Part shown: piece by piece, positions 29,030-35,918 of the stretch | Layout of the letters: each line of letters begins with the position of its first letter | How positions within the stretch are numbered: the first letter of the stretch is position 1 | Source: Kangiellaceae bacterium | GTDB lineage: Bacteria; Pseudomonadota; Gammaproteobacteria; Enterobacterales; Kangiellaceae | Direction: 5' to 3' | NCBI GenBank assembly: GCA_016743995.1 | Contig: JADGFG010000023.1 | Span: forward strand, 1-36,303 | DNA: 36,303 nucleotides | The notes under the pieces: generated by a model | Seen by the model: the letters and a program-made list of their open reading frames with translations, nothing else | Databases searched by the model: none | What the model was told of the DNA's origin: nothing | Translations under genes and position numbers: made by a program

Positions 29030-29509
29030 ATGGCTGGAAAAAAGAAAAAAACGCCTGAAAATACAATTGCTCAAAACCGCAAAGCTCGGCACGACTACTT
29101 TATTGAAGATACCTTTGAAGCAGGACTGTCTCTCGAAGGCTGGGAAGTGAAAGCTATGCGAGACAAAAAAGCAAACCTGACAGACTCTTATGTCATTATT
29201 CACAACAGTGAAGTTTACCTTCATGGTTGCCACATTTCGCCATTGATTACCACTTCAACGCATATAAAAGCGGTGCCAACAAGAAACCGCAAGTTGCTTC
29301 TGCATAATGCTGAAATTGGTAAGTTGATAGATGCTCAACAAAAAGATGGCTATACTATCGTTCCTTTGTCACTTTACTGGGTCAGAAACCGAGTCAAGCT
29401 GAAAATTGGAACTGCCAAAGGTAAAAAATTACACGATAAGCGCGCCACAGAAAAAGCAAAAGAGTGGAATAGAGATAAACAGCGCATCATGAAAAATAAC
29501 TTTGATTAA
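29030..29509 (+). CDS. smpB: SsrA-binding protein SmpB
   Basis: Binds the tRNA-like part of tmRNA and delivers it to stalled ribosomes. The 159 residues begin with the family's basic segment and continue with NTIAQNRKARHDYFIEDTFEAG-like OB-fold sequence, including GWEVKAMRDKKANLTDSYV. The C-terminal tail (KLHDKRATEKAKEWNRDKQR) is the helix that enters the decoding site. It has a weak ribosome-binding site. It is followed after 12 bases by the LysM lipoprotein gene, and its RNA partner ssrA is 6 kb downstream rather than adjacent. Confidence 0.97.
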   Translation: MAGKKKKTPENTIAQNRKARHDYFIEDTFEAGLSLEGWEVKAMRDKKANLTDSYVIIHNSEVYLHGCHISPLITTSTHIKAVPTRNRKLLLHNAEIGKLIDAQQKDGYTIVPLSLYWVRNRVKLKIGTAKGKKLHDKRATEKAKEWNRDKQRIMKNNFD

Positions 29510-31445: not shown

Positions 31446-32096
31446 CTAAGTACTGGAATCTTCATCGGGCCTGATTAATAGTCCATCGGTGGTAATCATC
31501 AACTGATAAGATTTTTTTTCATCCGCATTTACAAAACTCGCCGAACCGTGCTCCACATCCAGTAAAAATGACAAGACTTTAAAATCCTCGCGCCACTGAG
31601 CAACACCTTCGCCGGTTTTATTGCTAATAGCAAAAACCGTTCGTTCCTTACTCGACTCATCTTCAATAGAACGATAACGCCCCACCACTCGCTCCAACCG
31701 ATATGCGGTATGTAATCCCAGAATATTCGTCCAGGGTTTCCACTTTAACACATAGGCATCAACCAGTAATTCATCACCTTTTAACGCGAATACCTGCTGA
31801 CTTCCATCGGGAAATAACAAACGGGCATTAAATCTCTGTTCTGCCAGCGGTGAAACAACAATTCGAGCAACCGATTCCTCACGTACCAACGCCTGATAAC
31901 CAATCGTACCAATGACAATGACAGATATAGTTGAGGTAATCATAAAGAAAAGCAGGAAACTGCCAAGCCTTCGAATACTTGCAAATACCCTCACCCGTTT
32001 TACCTGGCTTAACAGAGAAACCAGGTAATACAAAGATATTAATCCAGTAAAGGCAGCAATGATTAACAACGGATTAATATTTTCTACAACAGGCAT
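31446..32096 (-). CDS. Two-helix membrane protein of unknown function
   Basis: A 216-residue protein with two N-terminal membrane helices (about 8-28 and 45-70) and a soluble C-terminal domain of about 140 residues, probably outside the cytoplasm. The domain contains FNARLLFPDGSQQVFALKGDELLVDAYVLKWKPWTNILGLHTAYRLERVVGRY and ends with SYQLMITTDGLLIRP. I do not recognise the family; homologues near ratB in marine relatives carry loose efflux-pump names. It starts 33 bases after the terminator-like hairpin at 32129, on the minus strand, downstream of the kinase operon. Confidence 0.7.
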   Translation of the reverse strand: MPVVENINPLLIIAAFTGLISLYYLVSLLSQVKRVRVFASIRRLGSFLLFFMITSTISVIVIGTIGYQALVREESVARIVVSPLAEQRFNARLLFPDGSQQVFALKGDELLVDAYVLKWKPWTNILGLHTAYRLERVVGRYRSIEDESSKERTVFAISNKTGEGVAQWREDFKVLSFLLDVEHGSASFVNADEKKSYQLMITTDGLLIRPDEDSST

Positions 32097-32344: not shown

Positions 32345-34108
32345 TCAATAGGATTCATCTTTATGTGAAACAATATCCAGTTCTACTGTTTCAGCTATCT
32401 GATTATCAGGTTTAATCTGACGGCGTATCTTCGCCTGTTTAATAGTGCGCGTTCTTTGAACATCGGAGTTTTCAAAACGATGCTCCAGATAATTAGCCAG
32501 GCGGTTAAATGCTGAGAATAATAACCCCGCCTCGTCATTTCTTTCTGTAACCAGCCGTGCGTCAATTCTGCCCAACGCCATTTTATTCAAAGCCTGAGTC
32601 ACCCGCTGATAATCATTCGAAGTACGTTTAGCCAGTGATAACGTAATAATAAATACAACAATTAATGTCAGCATCATCACTACCAGCATAGTAACCAGCG
32701 TCATTCTGGATGCCGAATACATCAAATCGGCACTAAAGGAAATATATAGAAAACCCAGCTTTTTCTCCGCATAAACAATCGGCATAGCTATATCAAACAG
32801 AACCGTTTCATCATCAAGCTGTCGCTGAAAAATATCGGTTTTATCCAGGGTTCTCATCAATTCTCGGTCCGGCGGTGGCGTAAAGTTTTTACCCACCAGA
32901 TCATGATTAGTCGCGGCCAGAATACTGTTATCATTATCCATCAGAATCACACTTTTGAGCTGTTCGTTATGGCTGGCATCATTAACCAGAGCGTTAAGAC
33001 CAACCGTGTCATCTAGTAACAATGATTCAGAGCTTTTGTAAGCCACTGACTGCGCAATTGAACGCCCGTAATCAAAAGTAATTCCAGACAAAGCTTTAAA
33101 CTGCATAAAATAGACAACAACCAGGCCGATGCACATTGAAGTAAACACCACGCCGGCCATAACGGCGCTCCACTTCAATTTCAAAGACACATACTCTTTA
33201 GAATGAGGCTGTGTCTTGTCCGCTATTTTTCCCTGAATGCTGCGTAATTCAGCCGTTAAACTCAAAGCATTCATAAAACGCTTTTCCGGATTTTTCTGCA
33301 ATAGCTTACGAATCAAATCTTGTAAATCATCCTGAACCTTATCTTCAGAGATATGCAGTTCTGGAGGTTTGTTCTTTACAATCTGTTTAAACAAATCACT
33401 CAGATCATCGGCAACAAAAGGTGGTAATCCCATTAACATCCGATAAATAAGGACACCCAGAGAATATAAATCGGAACGGTCATCCATTGTTTCGCCAAGT
33501 ACCTGTTCAGGCGACATATACTCGGGAGTGCCCATCACTTTATTGGCACTTTGTCCTTTATTGGTTAAGTTATCATCTAGCTGAGCAATACCAAAATCAG
33601 TCAGTTTAATCGTTTTTTTATCCTTTAATACAACAATATTACCGGGCTTGATATCCCGGTGAACCACACCACGCTTATGCGCATAACTCAGTGCTTTTGA
33701 TAACTGAAATGTCATTGCAAGCACGGTTTTCAGGTTAAGCTTGCCCTGGTTAGCTAAAATTTGCTCAAGCGTTGCGCCTTCCAGTAGCTCCATACCAATG
33801 TAAGGCTTATTATCAGCAATACCAACGTCAAAAATGGTAACAATTCCAGGGTGGGTCAATTGTGCTGCCAGACGCGCCTCTCTGATAAAGGCATCTCTAT
33901 ATTCTTCATCAAGCGCCAGCTGGGGTCTTAGAACTTTAATCGCCAGAAACCGATCAAGCTGAGGATCATAGGCCTTGTAAACAAAAGCAGTCGCGCCGCG
34001 CCCTACCTCATTTAAAATACGATAACGTCCCAACGACTGGGACAATGACTGGCTATTTTCAAGAGTATCACTAACAGGTTCTGCTTCAGAAATATCGTTT
34101 TTTGACAT
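32345..34108 (-). CDS. Transmembrane Ser/Thr protein kinase with periplasmic sensor and HAMP
   Basis: A 587-residue Hanks-type kinase. The N-terminal catalytic domain (28-290) is complete: glycine loop GRGATAFVYKA, K58 in AIKVL, HRDIKPGN (150-157), DFG (171-173) and GTPEYMSPEQ activation segment with threonine. A membrane helix (313-336), a 130-residue periplasmic domain (337-466), a second helix (469-492) and a HAMP-like region (495-545) follow. Thus the sensor is inside the C-terminal half, between two helices, unlike the PASTA kinases of Gram-positives. The periplasmic domain resembles that of the YtjB/AhpA-like protein. It is the last gene of the PP2C, FHA, kinase operon, 6 bases after the FHA gene. 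I see no type VI secretion genes nearby. Confidence 0.94.
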   Translation of the reverse strand: MSKNDISEAEPVSDTLENSQSLSQSLGRYRILNEVGRGATAFVYKAYDPQLDRFLAIKVLRPQLALDEEYRDAFIREARLAAQLTHPGIVTIFDVGIADNKPYIGMELLEGATLEQILANQGKLNLKTVLAMTFQLSKALSYAHKRGVVHRDIKPGNIVVLKDKKTIKLTDFGIAQLDDNLTNKGQSANKVMGTPEYMSPEQVLGETMDDRSDLYSLGVLIYRMLMGLPPFVADDLSDLFKQIVKNKPPELHISEDKVQDDLQDLIRKLLQKNPEKRFMNALSLTAELRSIQGKIADKTQPHSKEYVSLKLKWSAVMAGVVFTSMCIGLVVVYFMQFKALSGITFDYGRSIAQSVAYKSSESLLLDDTVGLNALVNDASHNEQLKSVILMDNDNSILAATNHDLVGKNFTPPPDRELMRTLDKTDIFQRQLDDETVLFDIAMPIVYAEKKLGFLYISFSADLMYSASRMTLVTMLVVMMLTLIVVFIITLSLAKRTSNDYQRVTQALNKMALGRIDARLVTERNDEAGLLFSAFNRLANYLEHRFENSDVQRTRTIKQAKIRRQIKPDNQIAETVELDIVSHKDESY

Positions 34109-34114
34109 ATTAAA

Positions 34115-34627
34115 TTAGAGGATTAAATAAATTAAACCGGCAAATCCCAGTAATAAAACCAACCCCACAGACATTAACATGAGATGTTTAAACGGTTTTC
34201 GTTGAGGTACAGGCTCATCAATCAGCATAAAAAGAAATTCAGCCCCGGCAAAAGAAACTCTGTCTCCGGGTACAATAACACTTTCAGCAACTTTTTTCCC
34301 ATTAACATACGTTCCATTAGACGATAACAGGTTAAAAACTTTCCAGGAACTTCCATTTTGAATAATGTGTGCATGAATAGAAGAAACACTGGAATCTTTT
34401 AGCACAATATCACTATTCGGCCTGCGTCCAACCTCCAGTTTATGCTGATTTAGCACAAACTTTTGACCATTAACACTTTTGCTCACACCAACCAGTGCAG
34501 GCATTCTTGCATCATCCGAAGACGAATGCAGCAGCTCCCCGGCAATCATTCTATTAACATCATCGGCATTAAATACCTGGGTGCCCTGCGGACCAGTTAC
34601 TGAGTCTTTTTTTTGTACTTTAGCCAC
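34115..34627 (-). CDS. Membrane-anchored FHA domain protein
   Basis: A 170-residue protein with an FHA domain (about 55-135), which binds phosphothreonine peptides. Key residues are G67-R68, S83, H85 and N104-G105...N109 in SSNGTYVNGKK. A single C-terminal helix (149-170) anchors it in the inner membrane, so the FHA domain should face the cytoplasm. The N-terminal tail has G-T16-Q-V-F-N-A-D, close to the phosphorylated T-x-V-F-x-A-D of mycobacterial GarA. It lies between a PP2C phosphatase (26 bases upstream) and a kinase (6 bases downstream). The start is GTG with GGAG eight bases upstream. It is the likely substrate and/or anchor of the kinase; this is inference. Confidence 0.92.
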   Translation of the reverse strand: MAKVQKKDSVTGPQGTQVFNADDVNRMIAGELLHSSSDDARMPALVGVSKSVNGQKFVLNQHKLEVGRRPNSDIVLKDSSVSSIHAHIIQNGSSWKVFNLLSSNGTYVNGKKVAESVIVPGDRVSFAGAEFLFMLIDEPVPQRKPFKHLMLMSVGLVLLLGFAGLIYLIL

Positions 34628-34653
34628 TCTCTACGCTCCTTTTACCCGTTCCA

Positions 34654-35445
34654 TTAATTGTTTCTATTAAATAGTGCACAAAAACCAGACTTTAAACGCT
34701 CAATAACCGTTGGTTCCGATTTTATCGGCGAATCTACCAGAATAATACTGATGTTATCCTTACCACCCACAGCCTTCGCTTCGTCTACCAGTGTGGCAAG
34801 TTTTTCCTGGTTATCCAAATCCTGCTTTAAAACCGCTGCAATTTTTTCATCAGTCAGTTCATCAGTCAACCCATCACTACAGAGTAGTAACTGCTGACCC
34901 GCCAGCCAGCGACCTTTAACGGTATCTACACTGACAGTTTCGATTTCAAGTGAGCCTAAACATTGTGTAATCATATGTCTTTGTGGGTGCTTCAGTGCAT
35001 CTGTTGCGGAAATAAGCCCAGACTTCATCAACCTGACCACTAACGAATGATCTTCAGAAACCTGTGACAACCGGCGTTTATTCTCATCCCATAAATAAGC
35101 TCGGCTATCACCCACCCAGGCAACCTCATAATCGAGAATATCACTGGTGACCGCAACAATCGTCGTTCCCATACCATATTGATCACTGCCCTTGCTGCCA
35201 GCCTCCATAATACGGTGATGTGCCAGCTCTATGGCCTCGGTAAGCTTACCGGTCCGACTAAATTCTTCAGCAATCGTATCAGACGCCAGCTGACTGGCAA
35301 CTTCACCACAGGCATGTCCGCCCATGCCATCGGCCACCAACCACAGGTTGCCGCTACAATAAAGCGAATCTTCGTTAAGCTCGCGTACACTGCCTACATC
35401 AGTGATTTGAGCAAAACTGCTGATATTCTGGACATTAGTATCCAT
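34654..35445 (-). CDS. PP2C-family Ser/Thr protein phosphatase
   Basis: A soluble 263-residue phosphatase of the PP2C (PPM) family, expected to reverse the neighbouring kinase. Metal-binding residues are present: NED (24-26), DGMGGH (39-44), SDGLTDEL (about 190) and GGKDNISIILV near the end. The fold is complete at the usual bacterial length, with no added domains or membrane segment. It is the first gene of a three-gene operon with the FHA protein and the kinase, and the ATG follows a weak purine-rich ribosome-binding site. The divergent 125-base gap to ssrA should hold its promoter. Confidence 0.95.
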   Translation of the reverse strand: MDTNVQNISSFAQITDVGSVRELNEDSLYCSGNLWLVADGMGGHACGEVASQLASDTIAEEFSRTGKLTEAIELAHHRIMEAGSKGSDQYGMGTTIVAVTSDILDYEVAWVGDSRAYLWDENKRRLSQVSEDHSLVVRLMKSGLISATDALKHPQRHMITQCLGSLEIETVSVDTVKGRWLAGQQLLLCSDGLTDELTDEKIAAVLKQDLDNQEKLATLVDEAKAVGGKDNISIILVDSPIKSEPTVIERLKSGFCALFNRNN

Positions 35446-35570: not shown

Positions 35571-35918
35571 GGGGGCGACATGGCTTCGACGAGGATTACA
35601 AAACTTGAGGTGCATGCCGAGGTGTCAGCGAACCTCGTACCCACTAGCTGAACTTGTATAGTTGCAAACGACAATAACTACGCTTTAGCCGCTTAAGGCT
35701 AACTGTTGCTTCTGAGCGTCACTGGTAGGAAGTTTAACAGTCATTTACAGAGACTCGCGTGTAAGGGCGTTTGCCCCCCAAGCGTTAAAACTAAGCAAAC
35801 TCGCTCGGAACCTCCTGTTAGTCGGATCAGTTCTGAGTTAATTTAAAGACTAACTAAGCATGTAGTGCCAAGAGCAGAGGATTTTCGGACGCGGGTTCGA
35901 TCCCCGCCGCCTCCACCA
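35571..35918 (+). ncRNA. ssrA: Transfer-messenger RNA (tmRNA, SsrA)
   Basis: One-piece tmRNA of 348 bases. The tRNA-like ends pair fully: GGGGGCG (35571-35577) with CGCCTCC (35908-35914), which includes the G3-U70 pair that marks alanine charging, then discriminator A and an encoded CCA (35916-35918). The conserved GGTGCATGCCGAGG (35610 region), the tag region, GACTAACTAAGCATGTAGT and TTCGGACGCGGGTTCGA are all recognisable against Escherichia coli tmRNA. It acts with SmpB to rescue stalled ribosomes and tag the peptide for ClpXP. SmpB is in the window but 6 kb away. A terminator follows immediately. Confidence 0.98.
35664..35696 (+). other. tmRNA proteolysis-tag reading frame
   Basis: The resume codon GCA starts ten codons, A-N-D-N-N-Y-A-L-A-A, ending in TAA at 35694-35696. 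With the alanine carried on tmRNA, the tag is AANDNNYALAA. It differs from the E. coli tag (AANDENYALAA) by Asn for Glu at the fourth encoded residue. The terminal ALAA recognised by ClpX is intact. Confidence 0.95.

Follow-up and report, generated by a model that had tools for sequence, protein, structure and literature searches.

A candidate self-ligand switch in a membrane-anchored FHA protein encoded beside a Cache/HAMP receptor kinase in Gammaproteobacteria

The operon and its surroundings

The window analyzed here, that is the whole stretch of 36,303 nucleotides (positions 1 to 36,303 of contig JADGFG010000023.1 from a Kangiellaceae bacterium), carries on its minus strand a small group of genes for a PP2C-type phosphatase, a protein with an FHA domain, and a Ser/Thr protein kinase (Table 1). 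An earlier sequence-only reading had placed a kinase and a phosphatase on each side of the FHA gene, and this is indeed the arrangement: the PP2C gene ends 26 nt upstream of it and the kinase gene begins 6 nt downstream, giving the order PP2C-FHA-kinase. The three genes evidently form one operon. Pfam recognizes the FHA domain (E = 3.6e-15), the PP2C domain (1.2e-12), and, in the third protein, a kinase domain (7.7e-53) followed by a single Cache (3e-7) and a HAMP domain (1.4e-5). Both catalytic signatures of this kinase, HRDIKPGN and DFG, are intact.

Table 1. Features of the FHA gene and its operon neighbors (positions in the window)
Feature	Position	Strand	Basis
FHA protein gene, 170 aa: N-terminal tail, FHA domain, C-terminal membrane helix	34115-34627	-	ORF, Pfam, orthologues
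FHA domain (~residues 44-137), with pocket R68/S82/N104	34217-34498	-	Pfam, alignments, modeled fold nearest GarA/OdhI/EmbR
C-terminal transmembrane helix (~residues 148-169), predicted	34121-34186	-	AlphaFold model helix; hydrophobic C-terminus in orthologues
Motif G12-P-Q-G-T16-Q-V-F19, putative phospho-acceptor block of the tail	34571-34594	-	Orthologue conservation
T16 codon, predicted phospho-threonine	34580-34582	-	Sole Ser/Thr tail column kept in all orthologues
T16-D22, stretch earlier likened to GarA	34562-34582	-	Present; N20-A21-D22 not conserved
Ser/Thr protein kinase, 587 aa: kinase domain, sCache_3_2, HAMP; predicted T16 kinase	32345-34108	-	Pfam; HRDIKPGN and DFG
PP2C-type phosphatase, 263 aa; predicted eraser of the T16 mark	34654-35445	-	Pfam PP2C; adjoins FHA gene in close relatives

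The FHA gene starts with GTG, and a Shine-Dalgarno sequence AAGGAG (read directly as the complement of 34636-34641) lies 8 nt 5' of it, so the tail in front of the domain belongs to the FHA protein. The translation begins MAKVQKKDSVTGPQGTQVFNADDVNRM... and contains T16-Q17-V18-F19-N20-A21-D22, exactly the residues 16-22 given in the sequence-only reading and inside an open reading frame with its own Shine-Dalgarno sequence. The membrane anchoring suggested there is likewise backed by a helix at residues 148-169 in both AlphaFold models (see below) and by the C-termini of 43 orthologues, which are hydrophobic with a single exception.

As for the surroundings, the operon sits between smpB (29030-29509), accompanied by ratA, and the tmRNA gene ssrA (35571-35918, tag ANDNNYALAA); smpB and its RNA partner thus lie on either side of it. 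Many relatives also have the SmpB and RatA genes near the FHA module. Downstream of the kinase a 216-aa membrane protein without a Pfam match is encoded (31446-32096), which adjoins the module in close relatives only; in genome G011 (locus L109) it is found near ratA, away from the kinase. The same genome as the window also encodes a second FHA membrane protein, with two FHA domains (L002, 1-1044), on whose contig there is a kinase-like match (C152:2018-2737).

Conservation of the tail motif and the FHA pocket

A search of relatives yielded 35 orthologues, which were aligned with the window protein to give 36 close sequences. G12, P13, Q14, G15, T16, and F19 are invariant in all 36, position 18 holds V in 34 and I in two, and position 17 varies among L, Q, M, and E. 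N20, A21, and D22 vary freely, so only part of the proposed seven-residue match to GarA counts, namely T-x-V-F; the N-A-D portion falls away, and GPQG stands where GarA has its ETT context. These alignments give GPQGTx[VI]F as the motif of the family, which lacks the actinobacterial ETT. Conservation of T16 was the check that the sequence-only reading had itself named, and T-x-[VI]-F is found in 36/36, with the T in nine more orthologues described below.

The block stands out from its context. Tail columns outside residues 12-19 have a mean entropy of 1.86 bits vs 1.21 bits for the FHA core (36 sequences), and all six invariant tail columns fall within one 8-residue block (permutation P ~2e-4). 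All four codons are in use for the Gly, Pro, and Thr of the motif, and since synonymous positions vary freely, selection acts on the peptide and not on the DNA. A degenerate DNA pattern of the motif has one match in the 4.7 Mb genome.

Orthologues from within the genus of small genomes resemble each other, and hence the 36 sequences are not 36 independent observations. Profile searches over a wider sample, comprising 369 genomes from the class and 398 from the phylum, returned nine more orthologues at E <=1.8e-35, separated by a clear gap from the next FHA proteins (5e-25 or worse), and it is these nine that carry most of the conservation weight. Their motifs are GPQGTMLF (three times), GPQGTQLF, GPQGTRLF, GPQGTVII, GPQGTVFV, GSQGTVLV, and GPMGTRFI: not one of the 45 sequences lacks the T, and position +3 is occupied by F, I, or V throughout, though the rest of the linker is unrecognizable in the nine. 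T16 is the only tail Ser/Thr conserved across all orthologues. A single-protein scan of genome contigs gave only a distant Myxococcaceae FHA protein resembling a transcription factor, without the tail.

In an alignment of 41 sequences the invariant tail residues are reduced to G12, Q14, G15, and T16, and those of the FHA domain include G67, R68, S82, H85, N99, N104, G105, and T106. T16 and the predicted phosphate pocket R68/S82/N104 are thus co-invariant in this alignment. T and the pocket Arg are 52 residues apart in 35 of the 36 close orthologues (53 in the remaining one) and 50-53 in the distant ones (52 by hand count in L042). The two-FHA protein L048 of genome G423 was left out of this count. 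It carries its GPMGTRFI directly before the second, orthologous FHA domain, which has a Lys in place of the pocket Arg (VGKK); a PP2C gene lies nearby and a kinase gene is absent nearby.

AlphaFold models of the unphosphorylated protein were built with 26 and 41 sequences. The modeled FHA domain is nearest to GarA, OdhI, and EmbR (Z ~17, with an rmsd of 1.1-2.8 over 94-104 residues; the X-ray/EM chains of GarA/OdhI score 16.6-17.8), with DgcB next at Z ~16. A tail docked in the FHA pocket was not seen in either model, which, as the protein is unphosphorylated there, speaks neither for nor against binding. Confidence in the tail is ~66-69; short strands of two residues recur at 10-11 and 17-18, and the structural alignment to phospho-OdhI starts only at residue 20. 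These low-confidence strands on either side of GPQGT, together with the fact that the invariance of T16 is shared by G12, Q14, and G15, would suit an explanation in which GPQGTx[VI]F is a structural element or a recognition site for a kinase or protease and T16 is never phosphorylated. We consider this highly improbable: self-ligand FHA tails are marked by just such a Thr at position 0 with hydrophobic residues at +2/+3, and a kinase gene is adjacent in nearly all loci.

Kinases and phosphatases in related loci

In 24 of the 29 orthologue loci, the next gene downstream, in the same orientation, encodes a kinase with the same Cache/HAMP sensor. Distant families are included in these 24, and in them PP2C is not adjacent; in 19 loci, most of them from close relatives, PP2C is encoded next to the FHA gene and on its strand. 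The remaining cases are diverse. In two loci (L115 and L116) the neighbors of the FHA gene are PP2C and a different, Cache-less kinase on the opposite strand; at L119 the contig stops within the FHA gene, and a two-FHA locus (L125) has PP2C and lacks the kinase. In genome G015 (L118), finally, the FHA gene and that of the 216-aa membrane protein have no kinase gene between them (52 nt separate the frames), nor was an orthologous kinase found elsewhere in that assembly; the protein keeps GPQGTEVF despite the missing neighbor. Both this genome and the Cache-less kinases of L115 and L116 count against a switch operated by the adjacent receptor kinase.

Twenty-five kinases, chosen by the presence of HxD and DFG, were aligned (the kinase frame of L104 has HxD and lacks the DFG string). 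Their catalytic loop is kept; the threonines of the activation loop vary. A PknB-style docking of the FHA protein on an activation-loop phospho-threonine of the adjacent kinase is accordingly unsupported, there being no conserved Thr at that place in the aligned kinases.

The last point also touches the idea that the phospho-tail serves another FHA protein or the kinase complex as ligand, with the protein's own FHA domain reading some other phosphoprotein. The genomes do encode other FHA proteins and several further kinases. We nonetheless hold it to be quite improbable, because the motif co-occurs with its own FHA domain at a nearly fixed distance and, in the two-FHA protein L048, directly precedes the orthologous domain, and because docking on the adjacent kinase lacks a conserved threonine.

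Likeness to known FHA systems and the proposed switch

Searched with phmmer against solved structures, the FHA protein is nearest to GarA/OdhI (2e-12), and the top eight sequences are all GarA/OdhI. The family profile matches GarA at 6e-19, but over the FHA domain alone, and does not bear out a common origin of the tails; a single-sequence phmmer search reaches into the tail with little gain (50 bits for a chain with the tail vs 49 for one lacking it). As regulators, GarA/OdhI act on 2-oxoglutarate dehydrogenase and glutamate enzymes. When phosphorylated, their tail Thr docks on the FHA domain of the same protein, which is thereby closed to partners (PMC6733907). Both those proteins and the one described here have an N-terminal T-x-V-F tail before a closely similar FHA domain, with (predicted) control by a Ser/Thr kinase, and the spacing from T to Arg is of the same order (59 in GarA, T22-R81 as counted on the alignment, vs 50-53 here). 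On the other hand, GPQGT replaces their ETTS, the FHA protein is C-terminally anchored in the membrane instead of soluble, and a sensor kinase and a PP2C phosphatase share its operon. Given the absent ETTS and the membrane anchor, the FHA protein is no GarA, though its mode of action is probably GarA-like. According to the literature, GarA with its ETTS motif occurs only in Actinobacteria and is linked to the ODH rearrangement of that group (PMC12321487); our findings do not contradict this claim, but the switch principle appears to reach further.

A second precedent is DgcB of Bdellovibrio bacteriovorus (FHA-GGDEF; PDB 6HBZ, 6HC0, and 6HC1), whose N-terminal phospho-T14 tail, with Val at +3, binds its own FHA domain (PMC6733907). 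It shares with our protein a non-actinobacterial origin and an N-terminal Thr tail (here predicted) as ligand of the own FHA domain, and R68/S82/N104 correspond by position, in our reading, to the DgcB residues R61/S75/N97 (PMC6733907). The spacing from T to Arg is slightly shorter in DgcB (47, T14-R61 in the paper's numbering, vs 50-53). Unlike DgcB, the 170-aa FHA protein has no GGDEF domain in a Pfam scan and is membrane-anchored, and a candidate kinase is encoded next to it, whereas DgcB is without an assigned kinase.

The third system that comes to mind is PpkA-Fha1-PppA of type VI secretion, where kinase, FHA protein, and PP2C likewise form a triad and Fha1 is phosphorylated at T362 (PMC3953482). 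Our genes, too, encode a kinase, an FHA protein, and a PP2C phosphatase, but in contrast to Fha1 the protein is short, with an N-terminal Thr and a C-terminal membrane helix. TssC (PF05943) is missing in 23 of the 34 genomes that carry the FHA gene, which rules out a type VI secretion module. The genome of the window itself has TssC genes, on contigs other than that of the FHA operon.

Recognition of FHA ligands depends heavily on the residue at +3, and in GarA, OdhI, and DgcB both +2 and +3 are hydrophobic (PMC6733907). It is on the combination of a Thr at position 0, hydrophobic residues at +2/+3, an intact pocket, a near-constant tether, and an adjacent kinase that we propose a self-ligand switch. 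The FHA protein would be tail-anchored in the inner membrane, with its N-terminal tail as its own ligand. On a periplasmic signal, the adjacent Cache/HAMP receptor kinase would phosphorylate T16, and phospho-T16 (pT-x-[V/I]-F) would enter the protein's own pocket R68/S82/N104, most likely in cis, thereby closing the binding face to other partners until the PP2C phosphatase reopens the protein. We regard this course of events, with a cis geometry likelier than trans, as reasonably probable.

Alternatively, the phospho-tail could bind the FHA domain of a neighboring copy, and the kinase would then cluster or dimerize the protein in the membrane rather than close it. Membrane anchoring may well raise the local concentration in favor of such contacts, and the DgcB precedent, which we count against our proposal in this respect, points the same way, as its authors judged from gel data that tail binding is mainly intermolecular (PMC6733907). 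The conservation data fit equally. A spacing of 50-53 residues between T and pocket despite a divergent linker, however, is more easily explained by docking in cis, and we consider the trans arrangement rather unlikely, if deserving of attention.

A literature search found no paper combining FHA domain, threonine kinase, Gammaproteobacteria, and GarA, and the one Kangiella/FHA paper that it returned is unrelated, going by its title and abstract. With some reserve, we lean toward seeing here a widespread and apparently undescribed module of this proteobacterial class, in which a Cache/HAMP receptor kinase is paired with a tail-anchored FHA protein bearing its own invariant phospho-threonine ligand. 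With T16 as the site and R68 as the pocket residue, two point mutants would allow a test of the mechanism, and the gene neighborhood supplies a kinase-substrate pairing of the kind that is usually missing for bacterial Ser/Thr kinases. If the proposal is true, self-ligand FHA switches would have a third lineage in addition to GarA/OdhI and DgcB, one with the sensor kinase (and, in close relatives, the phosphatase too) in the switch's own operon. The GarA-type self-locking FHA switch would then not be tied to actinobacterial central metabolism, but would also exist as a self-contained operon of sensor kinase, switch, and eraser, with its input in the periplasm and its switch in the membrane.
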